A stretch of DNA of 42,995 bases from Halieaceae bacterium (lineage in GTDB: Bacteria > Pseudomonadota > Gammaproteobacteria > Pseudomonadales > Halieaceae): the NCBI GenBank assembly GCA_002683335.1, contig NYTE01000048.1, forward strand, positions 1 to 42,995. The letters are read 5' to 3'. The translations under genes were made by a program, and so were the position numbers. Shown piece by piece: positions 7,922-20,407 of this stretch (positions are counted from its first letter, which is position 1; the number at the start of each line of letters is the position of its first letter). The notes under the pieces were generated by a model. That model was not told the DNA's origin and did not search any database. It saw only the letters and a list, made by a program, of their open reading frames with translations.

Positions 7922-8584
7922 TTAGCGGACATGCAACGGAAATGCTCGGCGCAAAAAGTCCCTCGCCACTGCTCTGGCACATCGCTTAGTCAGCTCTCGG
8001 GGGGTCACCAACAATCCCAGATGGAGACCATCGATAAGCGCAGAATACCCAATGGCTAGCTCGCGCGCGTCCGAACCGACGTAACCGCCCTCCTTGATAA
8101 TTTCGACAAATAGCGCCTCGAGCTTCTGCGCAGCGAAACGATCTGAAGTGGCCACGATTTTTTGGTACACGGGGCGTGCACCGGCCTCACCGTAGTAGGC
8201 AAACCAAACCGACATTTTTTGACGCTGGGTCACGCCGCGACCGAACTGAAAATCGAGCAACGCGTCCAATCTCTGGCCCAAATCAGGCATGTCAGACCCT
8301 GACATGATCTCGATCTGACCACCGTGGTATTCGTCCGCCACAAAGCGCAGCGTTTCTTTCAGCAAGTTATCTTTGCTTTGGAAATGAAGATTCGCGATCC
8401 CAACGCTAAGCCCGGCTTCTCGGGTGACCATTTGCATGGTGACCGACGATAACCCCCGCTGCGCAATACAACGGATCGTCGAATCGATCAGCTGCTGGCG
8501 ACGCTCTGCTTTAGGGCGAATCTGGCGCCTTTTTACAGCAGCGCCAGCAGGCTCGCCAGCCACCAAACCTGAAGCGTCGCTCAT
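7922..8584 (-). CDS. TetR-family transcriptional regulator, BetI-like
   Basis: N-terminal HTH RRQQLIDSTIRCIAQRGLSSVTMQMVTREAGLSVGIANLHFQSKDNLLKETL resembles the BetI HTH region. C-terminal segment IGYSALIDGLHLGLLV resembles the TetR_C_6/BetI C-terminal domain. Confidence 0.85.
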   Translation of the reverse strand: MSDASGLVAGEPAGAAVKRRQIRPKAERRQQLIDSTIRCIAQRGLSSVTMQMVTREAGLSVGIANLHFQSKDNLLKETLRFVADEYHGGQIEIMSGSDMPDLGQRLDALLDFQFGRGVTQRQKMSVWFAYYGEAGARPVYQKIVATSDRFAAQKLEALFVEIIKEGGYVGSDARELAIGYSALIDGLHLGLLVTPRELTKRCARAVARDFLRRAFPLHVR

Positions 8585-8645: not shown

Positions 8646-8665
8646 GAATGAATAATCATTCATTC
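8646..8665. promoter_or_regulatory. Likely TetR/BetI-like operator between divergent genes
   Basis: Perfect inverted repeat GAATGAAT-AATC-ATTCATTC in the intergenic region between the regulator start (8584) and the oxidoreductase start (8730). Confidence 0.75.
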
Positions 8666-8729: not shown

Positions 8730-10346
8730 GTGAACCAGTATGATGCGATCGTCATTGGGGCGGGCCACAATGGTCTCACTAATGGCGCCTATCTCGCCAA
8801 AGCCGGTCTGAAAGTCGCGGTACTCGAACGCAATCCCTACATCGGTGGCGCAACGGTCAGTCGGGAACTCCATAAGGGCTGGTGGTATTCCAATTGTTCT
8901 TATGTCTCGAGCTTGCTGCGTCCCGAAATTACCCGGGATCTCGAGCTACCGCGCCACGGGTTACAGGTGGTCTCATTTGGCGGCGGCGCAACGTTCATGC
9001 GCAATGGCGACCACTTTGGCAACTACAGCGACCACGATCGTCACTACCGGGAAATGGCGCGACACTCCAAGCGCGACGCCAACGCCTACGACCGCTATGC
9101 CGCTGATACCAGCCTGCAGACCAAACTGATTCGGCCCTACTTGATGCGGACACCGCCGGACCCCACCTCGATGAAACCGCGTGACCTGCGGGATCTCTTA
9201 GAGTTCGCACGCTCATTCATGGGTTTGGGCGAAGAAAAGCTGCTCGATACGATCAAATTCTGGACGGCGAGCGTCGGCGACTATCTGCACGAATATTTCG
9301 AAACCGATGTCATCAAAGCCCACATGGCGGGCAGCGGCATCATTGGTACCGCGTTGGGGGTGTACTCGCCCGGTACCGCGTATGTTCTGCTCCATCACTA
9401 TATGGGTGATGTCGATGGCAATGTTGGCGCATGGGGTTTCGCCCGCGGCGGGATGGGTGCCATCGCCGACTCGTTGTCAAAGGCCTTTCAGTCTTATGGT
9501 GGCGAGATTATCTGTGACGCGAATGTGGATGAAATCATCGTTAAAAACGGCAAGGCAGCCGGTGTCGCATTGAAGGATGGTACCGAGTACAAAGCGCCGA
9601 TCGTGGTTTCCAATTTAGATCCGAAGCGCACCTTCCTTGATATTACCAACCCCGCGGACTTGCCTAAAGACGTGCTGAAAAAAGCGCGCAATTTTAAGAT
9701 CAGGGGATCTTCGGGGAAGCTCAATATCGCGCTTGACGGCTTACCTGTGTTTAACGGTCTGGACCCGCGCAACCGATTAATGGCGGGCGACCTTCACTTC
9801 AGTGACTCCCTGGAACGGCAGGAACGGGCATACGATGACTGGAAAGCGGGAACATGGTCCAAGGATCCCTACCTCGACATGATGATCCCGTCACTCACCG
9901 ATCCCACTATGGCCCCTCCAGGCAAACACATGATGTCGGTTTTCGTACAGTACGCGCCTCCAAAGGTAGAAGGTCGCGAGTGGACCGATGAGGACAAAGA
10001 CGGATTCGAGAAGTCTGTCATAGACCAAATCTCAAACTATAGCCCCAACTTTAGAGACCTTATTTTGCACTGCGAAACAAGAACGCCCAGAGAAATCGAA
10101 GCAGAGGTCGGGCTAACCGAAGGCAACATCTTTATGGGAGAGCTGACGTTTGACCAACTGCTATTCAATCGACCATTTCCGGGATATGCGCAGTACCGGT
10201 CACCTATTAAAGGGATGTATATGTGTAGTTCTGGCACGCACCCCGGTGGCGGCGTAATGGCAGCACCGGGCGCCAACGCAGCGCGCGAAATTCTGGCCGA
10301 TTTGAAAAAATCCAACACTGTTCCGGGAGGGTACGCCGATGACTGA
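8730..10346 (+). CDS. NAD(P)/FAD-dependent oxidoreductase, phytoene desaturase-like (COG1233 type), copy 1
   Basis: GTG start. N-terminal dinucleotide-binding motif YDAIVIGAGHNGLTNGAYLAKAGLKVAVLERN; C-terminal FAD motif MYMCSSGTHPGGGVMAAPGANAAREIL. Confidence 0.9.
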   Translation: MNQYDAIVIGAGHNGLTNGAYLAKAGLKVAVLERNPYIGGATVSRELHKGWWYSNCSYVSSLLRPEITRDLELPRHGLQVVSFGGGATFMRNGDHFGNYSDHDRHYREMARHSKRDANAYDRYAADTSLQTKLIRPYLMRTPPDPTSMKPRDLRDLLEFARSFMGLGEEKLLDTIKFWTASVGDYLHEYFETDVIKAHMAGSGIIGTALGVYSPGTAYVLLHHYMGDVDGNVGAWGFARGGMGAIADSLSKAFQSYGGEIICDANVDEIIVKNGKAAGVALKDGTEYKAPIVVSNLDPKRTFLDITNPADLPKDVLKKARNFKIRGSSGKLNIALDGLPVFNGLDPRNRLMAGDLHFSDSLERQERAYDDWKAGTWSKDPYLDMMIPSLTDPTMAPPGKHMMSVFVQYAPPKVEGREWTDEDKDGFEKSVIDQISNYSPNFRDLILHCETRTPREIEAEVGLTEGNIFMGELTFDQLLFNRPFPGYAQYRSPIKGMYMCSSGTHPGGGVMAAPGANAAREILADLKKSNTVPGGYADD

Positions 10347-11895
10347 TTATGATGCGGTAATCATTGGCGCCGGCCACAATGGGCTAATTTGCGCGAGCTA
10401 CCTCGCCAAAGCGGGCAAGCACGTCATGGTGATTGATGGCCGCACAGAGCCCGGCGGTTGCGCGAGCAGTCGCGAATTCACCCCGGGATTCAATGTCTCC
10501 GATTGCGCGCAATGGCTGTCCCAGTTTGACCAGAGCATTGTTAAAGACCTTGATCTCAAAGGCGCCGGTTTGTCTTTAGGTAAAGCCAAGGCAACGATTT
10601 CACTGCAACCTGACGCTGACCACCTGATATTGGATGGGGATCAGGTCAGCGGGGCCGGGGTCGATCCCGTTGATCAAGCTGCATATCGCGATTTCAGAGA
10701 AATGGTGCGTAGCTTTGCAAAACTGATGACAACCCTCTATCGCAACCGGCCGCCTAAATTGGTTGAGCAAAACTGGACAGATCGATTCACGCTAATGAAG
10801 TTGGGCCTCAAACTGAAGATGCTCAGTCGCGAAAGACTCCGGGATCTGATGCGCGTTGTGATGATCAACATCTATGACGTAATGAATGAGCATTTCTCTC
10901 ACCCTGCATTGAAAAGCACTATCGCTTTAGACGCTGTTACCGGCACCAATATGGGTCCGCGTTCACCTAATACGGTATACAGCTATCTGCATAGAGCAAC
11001 CGGGGAGCACCTCGGGCAGACCGGTACTACACAGGTGATCGGCGGCATGGGCGCTCTGGGTAAGGCCCTCGCCACCACGGCAGAAAAACATGGCGCCACA
11101 CTGAAATTGGGCACGGCAGTCTCCGCCATCGACAAAACCGGTGACCGAGTGACCGGTGTCACGCTTGCTTCGGGAGAGACCGTATCGGCGAAGATTGTCA
11201 TTTCTAATGCTGATCCCACCACCACTTTCCGCGATTTGCTTGGATATCATCAGATGGAAGCCGGTATGGCGAAGCGGACTGAGCACTACCGATCCAGAAG
11301 CGGCACCGCCAAACTCCACCTCGCGCTGAGTGCACTACCCACCTTTACAGGCCTGACGGAAGCGCAGCTCTCAGAGAGACTCGTCATTACACCCTCTATG
11401 GACAGCATGGAGACAGCGCTAAACCCGATGAAGTACCGGGAGCTCAGCAGTGGGCACATCTTTGATATCAGCATACCCACTGTTGAGGACCCCGGCTTGG
11501 CGCCGGTGGGCGAACATATGCTGACCGCGATCGTCCATTATGTGCCCTTCGCACCCGACATCGGCTGGGAGGCCGGTAAGCCGCGACTGCTTAACCAATT
11601 GCTGGAAGAGCTAGAGGCCTATGCGCCCGGTATTGGCGCTTTGGTAAAAGCGAGTGAACTGGTGGTGCCTTCGGATTTTGAGGCGTCGCATGGTATGACC
11701 GGCGGCAACTGGCACCACGGTGAACTGTCGATTGATCAAGCCTTGATGATGCGGCCATTTCCCGGATCTACACAGTACGCCACTGCAGTCGATGGACTCT
11801 ACCTCTGCGGCGCCGGAGCGCACCCCGGTGGCAGCATTCAGGGGCTACCCGGGCGAAATGCCGCCAAGGAAATTCTGAAAAGAGGAGCCCTGTGA
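10339..11895 (+). CDS. NAD(P)/FAD-dependent oxidoreductase, phytoene desaturase-like (COG1233 type), copy 2
   Basis: YDAVIIGAGHNGLICASYLAKAGKHVMVIDGR; VISNADPTTTF; LYLCGAGAHPGGSIQGLPGRNAAKEIL. Overlaps the upstream CDS by 8 bp. Confidence 0.9.
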   Translation: MTDYDAVIIGAGHNGLICASYLAKAGKHVMVIDGRTEPGGCASSREFTPGFNVSDCAQWLSQFDQSIVKDLDLKGAGLSLGKAKATISLQPDADHLILDGDQVSGAGVDPVDQAAYRDFREMVRSFAKLMTTLYRNRPPKLVEQNWTDRFTLMKLGLKLKMLSRERLRDLMRVVMINIYDVMNEHFSHPALKSTIALDAVTGTNMGPRSPNTVYSYLHRATGEHLGQTGTTQVIGGMGALGKALATTAEKHGATLKLGTAVSAIDKTGDRVTGVTLASGETVSAKIVISNADPTTTFRDLLGYHQMEAGMAKRTEHYRSRSGTAKLHLALSALPTFTGLTEAQLSERLVITPSMDSMETALNPMKYRELSSGHIFDISIPTVEDPGLAPVGEHMLTAIVHYVPFAPDIGWEAGKPRLLNQLLEELEAYAPGIGALVKASELVVPSDFEASHGMTGGNWHHGELSIDQALMMRPFPGSTQYATAVDGLYLCGAGAHPGGSIQGLPGRNAAKEILKRGAL

Positions 11896-13079
11896 TGAGC
11901 GACGTCAGCCGAGACACTATGCTACTCACCACGCCGTTCCACTCCCGGGTGGAAGCGATGTGCGATTTAAACGACTGGGGCAACTGGATGGGATACACCA
12001 CCCCTAATGCCTATTTCGATGTGGAACTCGAGTATTTCGCACTGCGCAGCACTACCGGGGTGTTTGATCTCTCTCCCATGAATAAGTACCGGGTCACCGG
12101 ACCAGATGCGCAACGCTATCTTGACCGGCTCATCACACGGGATGTCAGCAAGATCGGTGTCAATCGAGTGGGGTATGCCATTTGGTGTGATGACAATGGC
12201 CAAGTCATGGACGATGGCACCATCTTTCGGCTCGGGGAGCAGGACTACCGTATCTGCTCTTACCAGCGTGCGGACGACTGGCTCGCTTGGAACAAATTAG
12301 GCTTCGACGTCACGATTGAAAATGAATCCGAAGCGGTCGTGGGACTGGCTGTTCAGGGACCCACCTCTTGCACCGTCCTAACACTGCTTGGGTGCCATGA
12401 CCTAAATCAACTGAAGCCATTCGGCATTGCGCATTACACTTTTGAAGGCCAGCCCCTGATGGTGAGTCGAACAGGCTTTACTGGAGATCTGGGTTACGAG
12501 GTCTGGATACCCCCCGAAAGCGCAGAAACGCTCTGGGATCAGCTTTTTCAAGTCGGCCATGACTACCTCATCAAGCCGATCGGCTCCTATGCGCTTGAAC
12601 TTGCGCGCATCGAAGCGGGTTTTTTACAAGCCAATGTTGATTTTATGCCCGCCGAGGAAGTCGTCCGTGTGGGTCGAACACGCAGCCCGTTCGAACTGGG
12701 ATTAAGCTGGCTGGTCGATTTCTCAAAACCCCTCTTTAATGGCCGCTCAGCGCTGCTCAAAGAGCAGGCCAATGGGTCTCGCTATCGCTTTGCCATGCTC
12801 GATGTAGAGGGTAACAAACCGGCCGAGCACTCCTTTATTCTTAAGGGAGACAAACAAGTGGGCACCGTGACCTCCGCAGCCTGGTGCCCGACAGCCAAGG
12901 CCAACATTGCCTACGCTCAAATCGAGATGCCCTATGGCGCCGCGGGAGACGAACTGGTTGCGGAAATTTATTACCAGCGTGAATTGCATTGGACGCGCCT
13001 GCTCGCGCCATGCAAGGTAATTGACGCGCCCATCTTCAAATCTCCCAAGCGCTGGCAAACACCAGCACCACCTCATTGA
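11895..13079 (+). CDS. GcvT-fold aminomethyltransferase family protein (GcvT/DmdA/LigM-like folate-dependent methyl transfer)
   Basis: ATG 11895 overlaps the upstream TGA. GcvT-like segments: LRSTTGVFDLSPMNKYRVTGPDAQRYLDRLITRDVSKIGVNRVGYAIWCDDNGQVMDDGTIFRL, VVGLAVQGPTS, SRTGFTGDLGYEVWIPPE, ALELARIEAGF. Confidence 0.88.
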   Translation: MSDVSRDTMLLTTPFHSRVEAMCDLNDWGNWMGYTTPNAYFDVELEYFALRSTTGVFDLSPMNKYRVTGPDAQRYLDRLITRDVSKIGVNRVGYAIWCDDNGQVMDDGTIFRLGEQDYRICSYQRADDWLAWNKLGFDVTIENESEAVVGLAVQGPTSCTVLTLLGCHDLNQLKPFGIAHYTFEGQPLMVSRTGFTGDLGYEVWIPPESAETLWDQLFQVGHDYLIKPIGSYALELARIEAGFLQANVDFMPAEEVVRVGRTRSPFELGLSWLVDFSKPLFNGRSALLKEQANGSRYRFAMLDVEGNKPAEHSFILKGDKQVGTVTSAAWCPTAKANIAYAQIEMPYGAAGDELVAEIYYQRELHWTRLLAPCKVIDAPIFKSPKRWQTPAPPH

Positions 13080-13104: not shown

Positions 13105-14382
13105 ATGCAGACCATTGCGACTTCCGTAGACGATTCTTTTCAGCGCATGCGCCAGAAGCTGGAGGCCGAGAAGGCTCGGCCCCACCACGCGATGGACTCC
13201 TATTTTTATCGCTCGCATTTGGTCCATGAGCAGGAGCTTGAACACCTTATTTTCAAAAGCTGGATTTATGCACTTCATACCAGCGAGATCCCCTCTCCCG
13301 GTGATTATCAGCTCATTGAGATCGGCGAAGACTCGATCATCGTCGCGCGGACAGAAACCGGCGAAATCCGCGCAATGCATAATATTTGTCGCCACCGAGG
13401 CGCCCGGGTTTGCGAAGAGACCCGCGGTAACCGTAAAACCCATGTCTGCCCTTATCATGGCTGGGTCTACAACATCGACGGCTCACTCAAAGTCGCTCGC
13501 GAAACCCACATCATGTCGGATTTTGAAAGTGCTTCGCATGGCCTGAAGCCGGTCAACTGCGTAACCTATATGGGTTTGGTCTTTATCAACTGCGATCTCG
13601 AGGCCGGCGACCTCCTGGCTTCGCTGGAGAATATCCGTGAACCCCTGGGTGCCTATGACCTTGAGCACGCTAAGGTTGCGCATCGGCAAACCTATCGCGT
13701 TGAGGCAAATTGGAAGTTGGCTATCGAGAATTATCTTGAGTGCTACCACTGCGCTACCTCACACAGAGCCTATGCGCGTTTGCATACCCTGAAAGACCTG
13801 GAAGAAAAATCAGCGCCAGTAGTGGCTAAAATGCTTAAGCGCGCCGACGAGGTGACGGGTATTCCCGGCATTTCAAAAGAACACACCGAAATCTATCTTG
13901 ATGCACCCAGTTTTGGCGCCTGCGCACATACAATGCGATACGGTCTATTCGACGGGTTTGTGACGGGCAGCAAAGATGGGCAACCCGTTGCGCCACTGAT
14001 GGGCGATATCCGGGACTACGATGGTGGTGCCGGCGACTTCCAAATGGGCCCTCTGACCTTCATGCTCAACTACCCTGACCACTGCGTGTTGTACCGCTTT
14101 TTACCCCGCTCACGCACCGAGACAGATATGGAACTGGTATGGCTCGTTCGCGAAGACGCCGTAGATGGTAAGGACTACGACGTCGAAAACTTGACCTGGC
14201 TCTGGCATCACACAACCCTTGAGGACGAATACATCATTACGCGCAATGCAGCAGGCGTGAATTCGCGGTTTTTCGAGCCTGGTCCGTATCATTCAGAATT
14301 CGAATTTACATTGCAGCAGTTCGTACACTGGTACCTTCATTCATTGGAAGCCAGCTTGGATTGTGAGATAAGGCCACGCTGA
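13105..14382 (+). CDS. Aromatic ring-hydroxylating/Rieske oxygenase alpha subunit, GbcA/choline-monooxygenase-like
   Basis: Rieske motif CRHRGARVCEETRGNRKTHVCPYHGWVYNIDGSL; catalytic-domain motif NWKLAIENYLECYHCATSH. Start assigned to ATG 13105 (longest ORF starts 13021, overlapping the upstream gene). Confidence 0.92.
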   Translation: MQTIATSVDDSFQRMRQKLEAEKARPHHAMDSYFYRSHLVHEQELEHLIFKSWIYALHTSEIPSPGDYQLIEIGEDSIIVARTETGEIRAMHNICRHRGARVCEETRGNRKTHVCPYHGWVYNIDGSLKVARETHIMSDFESASHGLKPVNCVTYMGLVFINCDLEAGDLLASLENIREPLGAYDLEHAKVAHRQTYRVEANWKLAIENYLECYHCATSHRAYARLHTLKDLEEKSAPVVAKMLKRADEVTGIPGISKEHTEIYLDAPSFGACAHTMRYGLFDGFVTGSKDGQPVAPLMGDIRDYDGGAGDFQMGPLTFMLNYPDHCVLYRFLPRSRTETDMELVWLVREDAVDGKDYDVENLTWLWHHTTLEDEYIITRNAAGVNSRFFEPGPYHSEFEFTLQQFVHWYLHSLEASLDCEIRPR

Positions 14383-14466
14383 GGGCGCCCCGTACTATAC
14401 TGCCCGCACGGTGAAGTAGTGGCCAAGGGACTTGCTTTCCCAGAGCGATATTGTCATCGATCTACC

Positions 14467-15897
14467 ATGACAAAAAAGGGGCAGACTTTGCAGCAAAACA
14501 CCGCGACTGATGGCTCCGATTTGGATGCAAAACGCACCCGCATACCGCTCTTCAGCGCGTTTTTCATGATTTACATCTTCGTCTCAGGAGGCTCTTTTGG
14601 CATAGAGGAGATGGTCTCGTCGTCTGGACCGGGCCTCACGCTTCTATTACTGCTCTTTTTACCCATTGTCTGGGCGCTGCCAATGGCACTTATCGCCAGC
14701 GAACTGGGATCTGCTATCCCAGAGAATGGCGGTTTCTACATCTGGACGCGACGAGGCCTCGGCGAGTTTTGGGGGTTTCAAGCTGCATGGTGGTGGTCTC
14801 TCGCTCTCCTGGTCGACACGTCGTTATACATCGTCCTGAGTGCCACCTATCTGCAAAACCAGATTGGCTTTAGTGACTCGGTGTACTACCTGATCTGCTG
14901 GTCTGTTATCGCGATCTTTACGCTCGTCAATATTATGGGCATCCGAGTGGTGGCTATCGGATCCAGCCTGTTTGCCATTCTGATTATTTCACCCATTGTT
15001 ATTTTGGCCGCAGTGGGAATTGCCAACTGGCAGTTCAATCCCTTCACGCCGATCACACCACCGGGAACCGACCTTTTAGGCAGCGATGGCACATTGATTC
15101 TGGGGCTCAGTGTCGGCTTATGGATGTACGCAGGTTATGAATCCATGTCGACCCTAGCCGGAGAGATTGAGGAGCCACAGCGCATCATTCCTAGAGCGCT
15201 GATGCTGGCGCTCCCTTTTGTTGCGCTCATGTACTTGGTGCCCACCGCCGCCAGTATTGCGGCGATCGGTGAGTGGGAGCTCTTTTCTGTCGATAGCGGC
15301 GACGGCAAAATGTCCTTCGTGGACATTGGACGACAACTAGGCGGCACTGCGCTTGGGCACGCCTTGCTTGCGTCTGCAGTGCTCGGGAATCTCGCGCTCT
15401 ACCTCGATTATATGGCGTCAGGTGCTCGGCCGATTCAAAGCCTAGCCAGAGACGGCTTACTGCCCTCGATGTTAACCGTCACCAGCTCGCAATTCGGCAC
15501 CCCCATCGTGGCCATTCTTCTCATAGCAGGCGTCAATGCCGTATTGGTAATCGGACCTTTTCAGAGCCTGGTCATCATCGACGTGCTCCTGATGGTGGCT
15601 TCCTATGCTCTTATCTTTATCGCTGCCGCAAGACTGCGCGTCGTCGAACCCGACCTACATCGCCCTTTTAAGATCCCCGGCGGCATGATCATTATGGGCC
15701 TGTTGATTACCCCTCCGATCGCCCTGATTGCTTTCATGATATTCATCACGCTGGGGGATCATAGCCTGACGCTATGGGGCCGTGACCGCTTTGGATTTTT
15801 AGGCATCGAAATCGGGTGGTATGGGGTAGCCGGACTGATTGCCATTCTCTCTGGACCGCTGCTCTATCCCTGGTTACGGGCACATAATCGACAATAG
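14467..15897 (+). CDS. APC-family amino acid/amine permease
   Basis: Multiple TM segments: FFMIYIFVSGGSFGIEEMVSSSGPGLTLLLLLFLPIVWALPMALIASELGSAIPENGGFYIWTRRGLGEFWGFQAAWW, and MYAGYESMSTLAGEIEEPQRIIPRAL, typical of APC permeases. Confidence 0.9.
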   Translation: MTKKGQTLQQNTATDGSDLDAKRTRIPLFSAFFMIYIFVSGGSFGIEEMVSSSGPGLTLLLLLFLPIVWALPMALIASELGSAIPENGGFYIWTRRGLGEFWGFQAAWWWSLALLVDTSLYIVLSATYLQNQIGFSDSVYYLICWSVIAIFTLVNIMGIRVVAIGSSLFAILIISPIVILAAVGIANWQFNPFTPITPPGTDLLGSDGTLILGLSVGLWMYAGYESMSTLAGEIEEPQRIIPRALMLALPFVALMYLVPTAASIAAIGEWELFSVDSGDGKMSFVDIGRQLGGTALGHALLASAVLGNLALYLDYMASGARPIQSLARDGLLPSMLTVTSSQFGTPIVAILLIAGVNAVLVIGPFQSLVIIDVLLMVASYALIFIAAARLRVVEPDLHRPFKIPGGMIIMGLLITPPIALIAFMIFITLGDHSLTLWGRDRFGFLGIEIGWYGVAGLIAILSGPLLYPWLRAHNRQ

Positions 15898-16021: not shown

Positions 16022-17428
16022 ATGAACAAACCTTTTCCCGGGCCCAAAACATTACGCGCGCTTGAGCGCGGCATACCGCTTTTTAAAAATGGGTTGCGCT
16101 TCAATGAGGCCATGCAGAAAGCGGGATCCCGTGGATTCAGATCAGTGCGTCAGATCGTGGTCTCCAGGGCTGAGGGGGATTTCGTATGGGATCTCGACGA
16201 TCAGCGCTATATCGATTTCCAAAACGGCTGGGCGACCAACCCGTTAGGTAATTGCCACCCCGAAATACTCAAGGTGGTGGAAACCGCTAACCGGCGCTAT
16301 GGGTTTCACTTTGATCACCCGCTTCGTTACGAGCTGGCGGAGATGTTGGCGGAAATTATGCCCGGTTGCGCGCTACCGCGGACCAACTTTGAAGTGTCGG
16401 GCACTGAGGCGGCGGAGGCAGCGGTGCATCTCGCGCTGACCCATACCCAACGCCAATATATCGTTACCTTCGGCGCGTCCTACCACGGCAATTCCATTGC
16501 TGGAAAATTACTAAGCGGACTCGGGGGCGACTCAGCCATTCACCTGGAAGCGTGGTCAGGGGGCGTGGTCCGTGCGCCCTATCCCTTTAGCGACAATATT
16601 CCGGCTAATCTCTCACAGGATCAATATGTAGATTTCTGCTTATGGTATCTGGAACACCACATCCACGAGACGATGGTGAGTCGCGACAATATTGCCGGTG
16701 TAATGCTCGAACCTGGCTTGGCAGAGGGGGGCAACTGGATTCCAACTCAAGCATTTGTGCGAGGAGTTCGGGACATTTGCGACCGAAACGACTGGCTACT
16801 TATCAGCGACGAGGTGCTCACCGGATTGGGAAGAACCGGGAAAATGTGGGCGATAGAGCACTACGACGTGACTCCAGATATCTTGGTTTATGGCAAAAAC
16901 CTGTCAGGCGGTATCGCACCGCTATCGGGCATTTCCGCCCGTGATGACATCCTCGGTGACAACCGTCACTTTAATTCTGGGTCAACCTTTGCAGGTTCTC
17001 CCGCAGGGTGTGCCGCAGCGATAAAAACCCTCGAGATATTCGAAAGAGATGGCATCGTCGCGCAAGCAGCCAAGCTTGGTCGAATTGTCGAGGAAATCAC
17101 CCGAGACTGGGAAAACTACGACATTGTTAGGCAAGTCAGAGGGAATGGACTGCTGATCGGGGTGAGTTTTGAGAGAGCTAGCCGAACTGACCGCGAAGGA
17201 GAGAACTGGTGGGTCGCACGGGCTGTAAGGGGCGAGATGCTTGAGCGAGGGGTATGGGCTATCTCGGATCATGAGGATACGATTCGCCTATATCCAGCGC
17301 TCAACATGAATGAAGACACCCTGAGAGCAGGACTTCACATTATGGAGGAGGCAATTCAGGCGGTTTCAAGCGGCGCGGATATCGAAGGAGACAGCGCCGC
17401 CTATCCCACTGGCGTCGCCGGCTTCTGA
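16022..17428 (+). CDS. Class III (PLP) aminotransferase
   Basis: FEVSGTEAAEAAVHLALTHTQRQYIVTFGASYHGNS, LLISDEVLTGLGRTGKMWAIEHYDVTPDILVYGKNLSGGIAPLSG (PLP lysine context), HFNSGSTFAGSPAGCAAAIKTLEIF. Confidence 0.93.
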   Translation: MNKPFPGPKTLRALERGIPLFKNGLRFNEAMQKAGSRGFRSVRQIVVSRAEGDFVWDLDDQRYIDFQNGWATNPLGNCHPEILKVVETANRRYGFHFDHPLRYELAEMLAEIMPGCALPRTNFEVSGTEAAEAAVHLALTHTQRQYIVTFGASYHGNSIAGKLLSGLGGDSAIHLEAWSGGVVRAPYPFSDNIPANLSQDQYVDFCLWYLEHHIHETMVSRDNIAGVMLEPGLAEGGNWIPTQAFVRGVRDICDRNDWLLISDEVLTGLGRTGKMWAIEHYDVTPDILVYGKNLSGGIAPLSGISARDDILGDNRHFNSGSTFAGSPAGCAAAIKTLEIFERDGIVAQAAKLGRIVEEITRDWENYDIVRQVRGNGLLIGVSFERASRTDREGENWWVARAVRGEMLERGVWAISDHEDTIRLYPALNMNEDTLRAGLHIMEEAIQAVSSGADIEGDSAAYPTGVAGF

Positions 17429-17459: not shown

Positions 17460-18254
17460 TCACGTCTCATACCAGAGCCCATCGGGATCCTCTGGCCAAA
17501 CACCGAGGTAGGGGCCGTGCGCTTGGAACCCGAGCATCCTTCTCATCGCTTCAGACTGCGAGGCCACTTCATCGCGTGTTAACGTAAGATATTGGTTCTC
17601 CTCCTGCCGCAACCAACCCAAACAGTAGGTATTGACGACTGCTTTTCTGGCCGCATCGCTCTGATTCTGGCCACCGCCATGTAACGTAGAACCTAAATAC
17701 AACACTACAGAGCCCTTGGGCATCACCGCCTGAATTACGTCCTTTTCACAAACCTGCGCGAAATCCTTTATCCCGGTCTCCTTTCGCACTATCCGCGTCG
17801 CGCCGTTCTCCTCCGTAAAATCGTCTAGGGCCCATAGAGCGGAAATTTGAACTTCAAACGGCAATAAGTGACTCGGGTAGCAGGTGTCATCAGCGTGAAG
17901 CACCTGCGCACCCTCACCCGGCAATATTTCAATAGCGGTCGTACTCCCCACCTGATACACGTCGCAATAAGGTTTCAACACTGCATCTGCCACAGCGAGC
18001 ACAGTGGGATTCAGCAGGAAATCAGCAAAATAGACCGAATATTTTGTTACACCTCCCACACGCAAGGTTTGATGACCGTTAAAACCGTTTTGGTAAAGGT
18101 GTCCCTCCCGGTCAAACTGCGGCCGAAGGTCAGTGATGAGCCCAGACACAATCTTCTCAGGTAATAGGTTTTCTATCACTACGGCCCCGGTCGTCGTAAG
18201 GGCTGTCACAACATCCTCAATATCGTCGTGCACCCCATAACGAGGAAGTGTCAT
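17460..18254 (-). CDS. Phytanoyl-CoA dioxygenase (PhyH) family Fe(II)/2-oxoglutarate-dependent oxygenase
   Basis: VLHADDTCYPSHLLPFEVQISALWALDDFTEENGATRIV (HxD) and GSTLHGGGQNQSDAARKAVVNTYCLGWLRQEENQYL (distal His region). Confidence 0.88.
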   Translation of the reverse strand: MTLPRYGVHDDIEDVVTALTTTGAVVIENLLPEKIVSGLITDLRPQFDREGHLYQNGFNGHQTLRVGGVTKYSVYFADFLLNPTVLAVADAVLKPYCDVYQVGSTTAIEILPGEGAQVLHADDTCYPSHLLPFEVQISALWALDDFTEENGATRIVRKETGIKDFAQVCEKDVIQAVMPKGSVVLYLGSTLHGGGQNQSDAARKAVVNTYCLGWLRQEENQYLTLTRDEVASQSEAMRRMLGFQAHGPYLGVWPEDPDGLWYET

Positions 18255-18418
18255 GCCGCTCTACTCCTGTATAAATTTCTGAGCCTAGGGTACTGAGTAT
18301 AGCCTGCGAAATCCCGATATCGCCCCAAGTAACCCGCCCCTTCTCGTCTCGGATAATCCCCGGACGGCTTGCACCAACCCCGTACTCTCCCCCGACTGAG
18401 AGAGCGGTGTTATGGTAA

Positions 18419-19222
18419 GTGACTGTGATGTGGGAAAAAATCGAAATGACTCAAGACGCACGGGCCAATCCACCACGACCAGCAACTGTATGCGACGCCC
18501 AATGGGCGGAGCGAGTGGATCTCGCAGCGGCGTTTCGGTGGGCAGCTCGCCTTAATTTCCATGAGGGCGTAGCCAATCATTTTTCAGTCTCGGTTAGCGC
18601 CAATGGCACGCAATTTTTAATGAACCCTAACCAATCGCACTTTTCGCGCATCCGCGCATCCGATCTACTTTTGGTCGATGCTAATGACCCCGGTACTATG
18701 GAGAGACCGGGTGCGCCAGACCCTACGGCTTGGGGGTTACATGGCGCACTGCACCGCAAGTGCCCTCACGCCAGAGTGGCGCTGCACGTACATTCGATTC
18801 ACGCCACCATACTGGCAACGCTGGAAGATCCTCGTCTCCCACCAATCGACCAGAATTGTGCGATGTTTTTCAATCGCTATGCGGTTGACCGCGATTACGG
18901 CGGGCTGGCCTTCGAAGAGGAGGCCGAGCGCTGCTGCCAACACCTCGCGGACGCATCGAAAAAAGTGCTCATCATGTGCAACCACGGTGTGATGGTCATT
19001 GGTGACAATGTGGCGGATGCGTTCAATCGACTATTCTATTTCGAGCGCGCAGCGGAAACCTATGTTAAAGCGCTGTGGACCGGTTTGCCGCTCAAGGTAT
19101 TGCCAGATGCCGTTGCCGAAAAAACAGCGATAGAGTTAGAGAATTACCCGGGACAGGCCGAGGGACACTTTGCGCAACTCAAATCCATACTAGATGAGGA
19201 GGAGCCAGACTACGCCAGCTGA
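18419..19222 (+). CDS. Class II aldolase/adducin family protein
   Basis: LAAAFRWAARLNFHEGVANHFSVSV, ALHVHSIHATILATLEDPRLPPID, VLIMCNHGVMVIGDNVADAFNRLFYFERAAETYVKAL. Start uncertain (GTG 18419, ATG 18428 or ATG 18446). Confidence 0.88.
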   Translation: MTVMWEKIEMTQDARANPPRPATVCDAQWAERVDLAAAFRWAARLNFHEGVANHFSVSVSANGTQFLMNPNQSHFSRIRASDLLLVDANDPGTMERPGAPDPTAWGLHGALHRKCPHARVALHVHSIHATILATLEDPRLPPIDQNCAMFFNRYAVDRDYGGLAFEEEAERCCQHLADASKKVLIMCNHGVMVIGDNVADAFNRLFYFERAAETYVKALWTGLPLKVLPDAVAEKTAIELENYPGQAEGHFAQLKSILDEEEPDYAS

Positions 19223-19273
19223 AGTAGCGGCAGTGTTTTGACAGGGACCTACCAAGCGTAACCCTCGCATCTA

Positions 19274-20407
19274 TCACTGGCGCAATACCGCCTCCAAAGC
19301 CGTGAGACATCGATTGATATTGGTTGTGTTGCAACTGCTACCCATCAGCCCAATGCGCCATTGCTTACCCGCCAACTCCCCGAGACCAGCGCCCACCTCC
19401 AGGTCGAACTCCTTTAATAAGGCATTACGAATTGCGGCGTCATCCTGGCCATCAGGAATCTGGACGGCGTTGAGCTGCGGCAGTCGCCAAGGTTCTGAGA
19501 CTGCGAGTTTGAGGCCGAGCTCCGAAAGGCCCTCAGTCAAAACCAGGTGATTTGCTTTGTGACGGGCAAAGCTGGCCTTAAGGCCCTCTTCCTCTAGCAT
19601 CAGCAATGCTTCATGAAGCGCATAAATGGCATTTACCGGCGCCGTGTGATGATAAGCACGCATGGCGCCCTCACCCCAATACCCCATGATGAGATTCATA
19701 TCCAGGAACCAACTCTGCACTTTACGCTTTCTAGTGGCGATCATCTCCACTGCATTCGAACTAAAGGTAATTGGCGCGATACCCGGCAAACTGGAAAGGC
19801 ATTTTTGCGTGCCCGAGTACACAACATCAGCACCCCAGGCATCCACCTGCAGATCGATTCCCGCAAGTGACGTCACTGCGTCAACAATACTGAGCATGCC
19901 CGCGGATTTCGCCATGCCACAGAGCGTTTCAGCATCGCTGCGCACGCCCGTGGAGGTTTCTGCATGAACAAAGGCGAGGATTTTGGCGTCGGGGTGCGTC
20001 TGAATCGCCTTCGCCACCTTCTCGGGGTCGACCGGATCACCCCATCTATCTTGCACCATCACCGCAGTACCACCGCAGCGCTCAACGTTTTCTTTCATTC
20101 TCCCGCCAAAGACGCCGTTCTGGCAGACAATAGCTTTATCACCTGGCTCGAGGAGATTAACGAACGCCGCTTCCATTCCGGCAGAACCAGGCGCCGACAA
20201 GGGGATAGTCAGCTCGTTCGTCGTTTGAAACGCGAATTGCAGTAATCGCTTGACGTCGTCCATAAGACAAACAAATAAGGGGTCTAGGTGCCCTATCGTT
20301 GGCCGGGCCGCAGCAGCCAGAACCCTCGAGGAAACGTCAGAAGGACCGGGACCCATCAAGGTACGCAAAGGGGGATAGAAAGGTGAAGACAAAAAAAACT
20401 CCGTCAT
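19274..20407 (-). CDS. Class V aminotransferase, alanine-glyoxylate / serine-pyruvate aminotransferase-like
   Basis: MGPGPSDVSSRVLAAAARPTIGHLDPLF, SAPGSAGMEAAFVNLLEPGDKAIVCQNGVFG, DVVYSGTQKCLSSLPGIAPITFS (PLP lysine), GAMRAYHHTAPVNAIYALHEAL. Confidence 0.92.
   Translation of the reverse strand: MTEFFLSSPFYPPLRTLMGPGPSDVSSRVLAAAARPTIGHLDPLFVCLMDDVKRLLQFAFQTTNELTIPLSAPGSAGMEAAFVNLLEPGDKAIVCQNGVFGGRMKENVERCGGTAVMVQDRWGDPVDPEKVAKAIQTHPDAKILAFVHAETSTGVRSDAETLCGMAKSAGMLSIVDAVTSLAGIDLQVDAWGADVVYSGTQKCLSSLPGIAPITFSSNAVEMIATRKRKVQSWFLDMNLIMGYWGEGAMRAYHHTAPVNAIYALHEALLMLEEEGLKASFARHKANHLVLTEGLSELGLKLAVSEPWRLPQLNAVQIPDGQDDAAIRNALLKEFDLEVGAGLGELAGKQWRIGLMGSSCNTTNINRCLTALEAVLRQ

Follow-up and report, generated by a model that had tools for sequence, protein, structure and literature searches.

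The window analysed here, a 42,995-nucleotide stretch of DNA from a Halieaceae bacterium, raises the question of what two adjacent, phytoene-desaturase-like flavoproteins do at a locus whose labelled neighbours are not carotenoid genes. Both proteins, designated F1 and F2, are full-length FAD proteins with the CrtO/CrtI fold. F1 (positions 8730..10346, forward strand, GTG start, 538 amino acids) is the slow-evolving partner and F2 (10339..11895, forward strand, 518 amino acids) the fast-evolving one. Reading frames and junctions are exactly as described in the original prediction, which saw a tandem pair with overlaps of 8 bp and 1 bp. The genes of F1 and F2 overlap in the 8-bp sequence ATGACTGA, with the ATG of F2 placed within the last codons of F1, and the TGA of F2 has one base in common with the ATG (11895) of a third gene, coding for a GcvT-like protein. 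An alternative GTG start of this third gene at 11892 would make its overlap with F2 4 bp long. The motifs said to be common to both flavoproteins were all located: GAGHNG at 8757 (F1) and 10366 (F2), VVSNLDPKRTF at 9603 in F1 and VISNADPTTTF at 11197 in F2, and HPGG at 10239 and 11821, respectively. Otherwise the two proteins are strongly diverged, as had been claimed; BLASTP aligns them over 524 amino acids with only 32% identity (E 1e-82), a similarity nevertheless far beyond chance.

The pair is part of a larger unit. A profile built from eight F1 sequences was used to search whole genomes in a class (n=229), a phylum (n=399) and an order (n=195) sample, and up to 20 kb around the F1 orthologues were taken and scanned with profiles in all six frames. 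Strongly scoring orthologues of F1 are patchily distributed, being present in 4/229, 11/399 and about 12/195 genomes of the class, phylum and order samples, respectively, and each one examined is adjoined by both an F2-type gene and a GcvT-like gene. All three genes lie on one strand in 43/43 complete units, mostly in the order F1-F2-GcvT (F2-F1-GcvT in three, GcvT-F1-F2 in one), and GxGxxG is retained by both flavoproteins in 43/43 orthologues. A reciprocal search of the order sample with an F2 profile gave 20 strong matches, all 20 adjoining an F1. Neither copy is thus regularly found alone: no lone orthologue appeared among the strong matches to F1 (class, phylum and order samples) or F2 (order sample), with loci gathered via F1 or F2, so that very diverged lone copies could escape. 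Three seemingly unpaired matches (G537, G623:C4 and G623:C2:481531) were paired once the surrounding DNA was read. The trio is also annotated in Rhizobium, Shinella, Parasedimentitalea and Fuscovulum within a plasmid collection, is present in GTDB genome loci of Halieaceae and their relatives wherever the contig is long enough to tell, and is found in numerous Proteobacteria from sea and soil. The GcvT-like gene is no less obligatory than the F1/F2 pair, and the first reading, that of the pair alone, was incomplete. Two loci (L159 and L166, from genomes G622 and G757) represent an early-branching type of cassette, in which the genes run GcvT-F1-F2 and F2 has diverged greatly. At three others (L039, L040 and L022) several cluster genes are split by apparent frameshifts, probably assembly errors of metagenome-assembled contigs.

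The third member (11895..13079, forward strand) belongs to the GcvT folate-binding superfamily, with 190 bits to PF01571 and an additional PF08669 match. Its DDGT motif (12210-12221), in the region of D106, and its SRTGFTGDLGYE block are kept across orthologues; DDGT aligns with the DD of GcvT, the established site of the catalytic aspartate. Among PDB chains, that of trimethylamine N-oxide (TMAO) demethylase comes nearest with its folate domain (9q5a, 171 bits), followed by glycine-cleavage T proteins and then by sarcosine and dimethylglycine enzymes. The cassette would work in the manner of folate-linked amine demethylases. The heterotetrameric sarcosine oxidase SoxBDAG and dimethylglycine oxidase/dehydrogenase combine a flavoprotein with a homologous tetrahydrofolate domain of GcvT fold in amine N-demethylation. 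However, their flavin subunit is of DAO type and their folate part is a fused domain, whereas in the cassette both flavoproteins are of CrtO type and the GcvT-like protein stands alone; because its flavoproteins are of this other type, the cassette falls outside the sarcosine/dimethylglycine oxidase family. TMAO demethylase (Tdm; 9q59, 9q5a), whose folate domain is the nearest by sequence, carries it fused to a catalytic domain that is not of CrtO type and has no counterpart in the cassette.

The fold of F1 and F2 is a poor guide to their chemistry. Structure models of both (F1, pLDDT 79, pTM 0.83; F2, pLDDT 80, pTM 0.84) find gamma-carotene desaturase 4rep as best Foldseek match, then CrtI, an archaeal oxidoreductase and amine oxidases, among them nicotine oxidoreductase and putrescine oxidase. 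As desaturases and amine oxidases have this fold in common, it cannot by itself settle the reaction, and with carotenoid desaturases as top matches it does not by itself indicate an amine substrate. One could read the two proteins as carotenoid or isoprenoid desaturases or ketolases in an unusual place, since besides the 4rep match their best NCBIfam matches are CrtO and CrtI and they share fold and FAD motif with this COG1233 family. Yet the scores are far below the cut-offs, with 291 (F1) and 215 (F2) bits against 1000 for CrtO beta-carotene ketolase (NF045689) and 110 and 138 bits against 238 for CrtI (TIGR02734). In a tree obtained by a quick method F1 forms one clade and CrtI/CrtD a separate one (support 99 for each), F2 forms one clade save one long branch, and neither F1 nor F2 falls within a carotenoid desaturase clade. 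Phytoene synthase (PF00494) has no match in the window's assembly, which is 74% complete, and the context is one of amine metabolism instead. By its labelled neighbours the locus lies outside any carotenoid context, as first proposed, and a carotenoid role, disfavoured by score, clade and context, is very improbable. Still less credible is a recent tandem duplication, with F1 and F2 redundant in function and their neighbours there by accident. Their common fold and their adjacent, overlapping genes would fit it, but they are only 32% identical, form two ancient clades and always occur together across families and classes. The residues conserved in each clade differ as well: E464-G-N-I467-F468 in F1 stands against G455-G-N-W458-H459-H460 in F2 (GGNWHH motif at 11701), in a region where the models are of low confidence (loop F1 463-487 / F2 454-479). 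In the same tree, with its root uncertain, F1 groups with single-copy COG1233 proteins (support 95) and not with F2; therefore the two parted long ago and move together as a cassette. Recent local duplication is rejected on the identity and this placement. The first interpretation stands in part: simple local duplication is not supported, while the two copies do form separate clades that always co-occur and co-diverge.

This co-divergence extends to the whole trio. Pairwise divergences correlate at 0.88 for F1/F2, 0.94 for F1/GcvT and 0.87 for F2/GcvT, values that partly reflect species history, as in any mirror-tree comparison. Paralogous cassettes within one genome sort into matching F1 and F2 subclades, and the match of F1 and F2 therefore exceeds what species history alone would give. 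Mean identities across units (64% for F1, 45% for F2 and 50% for GcvT) show F1 to evolve most slowly and F2 most rapidly of the three. Across Halieaceae and related loci, identity to the proteins of the window is about 82-99% for F1 and 54-98% for F2. The window's own genome, a 2.24-Mb metagenome-assembled genome with Luminiphilus/Halieaceae as nearest relatives, harbours a second, diverged cassette on contig 36 (about 59.6-64.0 kb; L049:9559-14007) in the order F2-F1-GcvT. It adjoins a ligase resembling gamma-glutamylputrescine synthetase (GS-III/PuuA-like) and a PuuB-like oxidase, both below curated cut-offs. Further along the same contig (about 71.3-74.6 kb; L050:1285-4638) lies a divergent, head-to-head pair of further CrtO-like proteins of the single-copy subfamily, outside the cassette and next to sulfatase-like and symporter-like genes.

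The surroundings of the cassette in the window point to amine catabolism. Divergent from it, a TetR-family repressor of BetI type (7922..8584, reverse strand; PF13977 TetR_C_6 and TetR_N) has BetI (TIGR03384) as best NCBIfam match, at 105 bits against a cut-off of 201. The intergenic region between it and F1 contains the palindrome GAATGAAT-N4-ATTCATTC at 8646..8665 (in full GAATGAATAATCATTCATTC), which is better conserved than any other block when these regions are aligned and recurs as exact copies at the same position in loci of 10 relatives; it is the only perfect copy of GAATGAATN4ATTCATTC in the 2.24-Mb assembly. It is likely the TetR operator. Downstream of the GcvT-like gene, a Rieske oxygenase of Group V type (13105..14382, forward strand; PF00355 and PF00848) comprises 425 amino acids when read from the ATG at 13105. 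The listed reading frame has its TTG start at 13021, still within the GcvT gene; a purine-rich stretch precedes ATG 13105, which is probably the true start. Oxygenases of Group V, acting on quaternary ammonium compounds, are marked by a bridging glutamate and a Cys-X-X-Cys beside the mononuclear iron site (PMC10952381). The enzyme of the cluster shares both with GbcA, Stc2 and CntA, in the form of ECYHC in the window (NYLECYHCATSH, 13729-13764) and in Halieaceae loci. Its nearest PDB entries are 3n0q and stachydrine demethylase (3vca/4qup) and its best NCBIfam match is GbcA, but we do not call it GbcA because it reaches 290 of the required 670 bits. No reductase gene for it was identified within the cluster. 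An amino-acid/amine permease (14419..15897, forward strand; PF13520), present in 15 of the 24 Halieaceae and related loci, is a probable uptake partner in Halieaceae. It is followed by a class III aminotransferase of the omega-amino acid/GABA type (16022..17428, forward strand; PF00202), whose nearest solved structures are mostly GABA aminotransferases. Beyond the cluster (17460-20407) lie genes for a PhyH oxygenase, a class II aldolase (above the PRK07490 cut-off) and an aminotransferase of class V type, which follow it in Luminiphilus relatives as well.

Similar neighbours recur elsewhere. We counted them around 39 cassettes, that of the window and those outside the Halieaceae set, and around seven single-copy relatives. 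Of the 39, 27 had a TetR gene of the window's type nearby, 22 a class III aminotransferase, 19 ABC genes of polyamine type, 15 a Rieske gene (within about 10 kb) and six a glutamine-synthetase-like ligase; seven had no scored amine-catabolism neighbour at all. The limited share with a Rieske gene and these seven cassettes weigh against the demethylase reading favoured below. Among the single-copy relatives the scored types were absent (0/7) except for Rieske genes (2/7). A PuuC-like aldehyde dehydrogenase is one further neighbour. Several cassettes have PuuA-, PuuB- and PuuC-like genes, PotABCD-type transport and class III aminotransferases nearby, in likeness to Puu/GABA polyamine catabolism. 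The Puu pathway is not known to include CrtO-type flavoproteins or a GcvT protein.

The cassette is obligatory, coupled and co-diverging, it keeps its FAD and folate-site motifs, and it sits in an amine-type context. The amine and quaternary ammonium neighbourhood points to the chemistry of F1, F2 and the GcvT-like protein, and we lean, with some reserve, towards a folate-linked, oxidative N-demethylase of three proteins forming one functional unit, probably a heteromeric enzyme, whose assembly and substrate we infer from this evidence. The earlier suggestion of an F1/F2 heteromer or two-step enzyme remains plausible. The flavin of F1, F2 or both would convert a cationic amine to an iminium by oxidation of an N-methyl group. 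The GcvT-like partner would then take up the one-carbon unit in the form of 5,10-methylene-tetrahydrofolate, in the manner of sarcosine/dimethylglycine oxidases and TMAO demethylase. Where present, as in the window, the Group V Rieske oxygenase may take the first methyl off a quaternary ammonium compound and leave subsequent ones to the flavoproteins. The resulting primary amine could then be processed by the class III aminotransferase or the glutamine-synthetase-like ligase, through transamination or gamma-glutamylation. F1 would serve as the conserved core subunit and F2 as the one adapting the enzyme to its substrate, for which candidates are a betaine-like compound, an N-methylated polyamine or an N-methylated omega-amino acid.

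Two other readings stay within amine metabolism. F1 and F2 could be amine dehydrogenases or oxidases that act on C-N bonds of polyamine-like substrates and not on methyls, with the GcvT-like protein employed elsewhere, for example in scavenging formaldehyde released by the Rieske enzyme. The transporters of PotABCD type, the PuuA/PuuB/PuuC-like neighbours, the class III aminotransferases and the amine oxidases among the structural matches are all in keeping with this reading. Nevertheless, the GcvT-like gene is part of all cassettes, even those without a nearby Rieske gene, and its link is therefore with the flavoproteins and not with the Rieske enzyme. This is our main ground for proposing that a one-carbon unit comes out of the flavoprotein reaction, and the C-N bond alternative appears to us distinctly less likely. 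Alternatively, the cassette might act on another class of N-methylated compounds, such as the methylated pyridines homarine and trigonelline, in a pathway already published under another name. Its hosts are marine and plant-associated, and a conserved homarine pathway of environmental bacteria, published in 2026, is cited in PMC13390433. As far as that citing paper describes the pathway, N-methylglutamate dehydrogenase (Mgd) takes part in it; the methyl group hence seems to be retained until late, a core GcvT protein is not obviously needed, and we regard this possibility as rather improbable.

A full-text literature search of limited coverage returned no account of COG1233 proteins paired next to GcvT, which is weak evidence. 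We tentatively suggest that the folate-linked N-demethylase favoured here may belong to a class not described so far, in which two CrtO-fold flavoproteins that cannot replace each other form a heteromer with a separate folate protein of GcvT type. It would be an independent solution to the task of DAO-type sarcosine/dimethylglycine oxidases, by which marine and soil Proteobacteria could obtain one-carbon units and ammonia from amines that are quaternary or N-methylated.

Many proteins are named "phytoene dehydrogenase" or "NAD(P)/FAD-dependent oxidoreductase" from their fold alone. One such set is an obligatory three-protein cassette linked to amine catabolism, for which a concrete and testable function can now be proposed. 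If the proposal is true, it would add a type of flavoprotein to folate-linked demethylation, through which marine and soil bacteria recycle nitrogen compounds that carry methyl groups.
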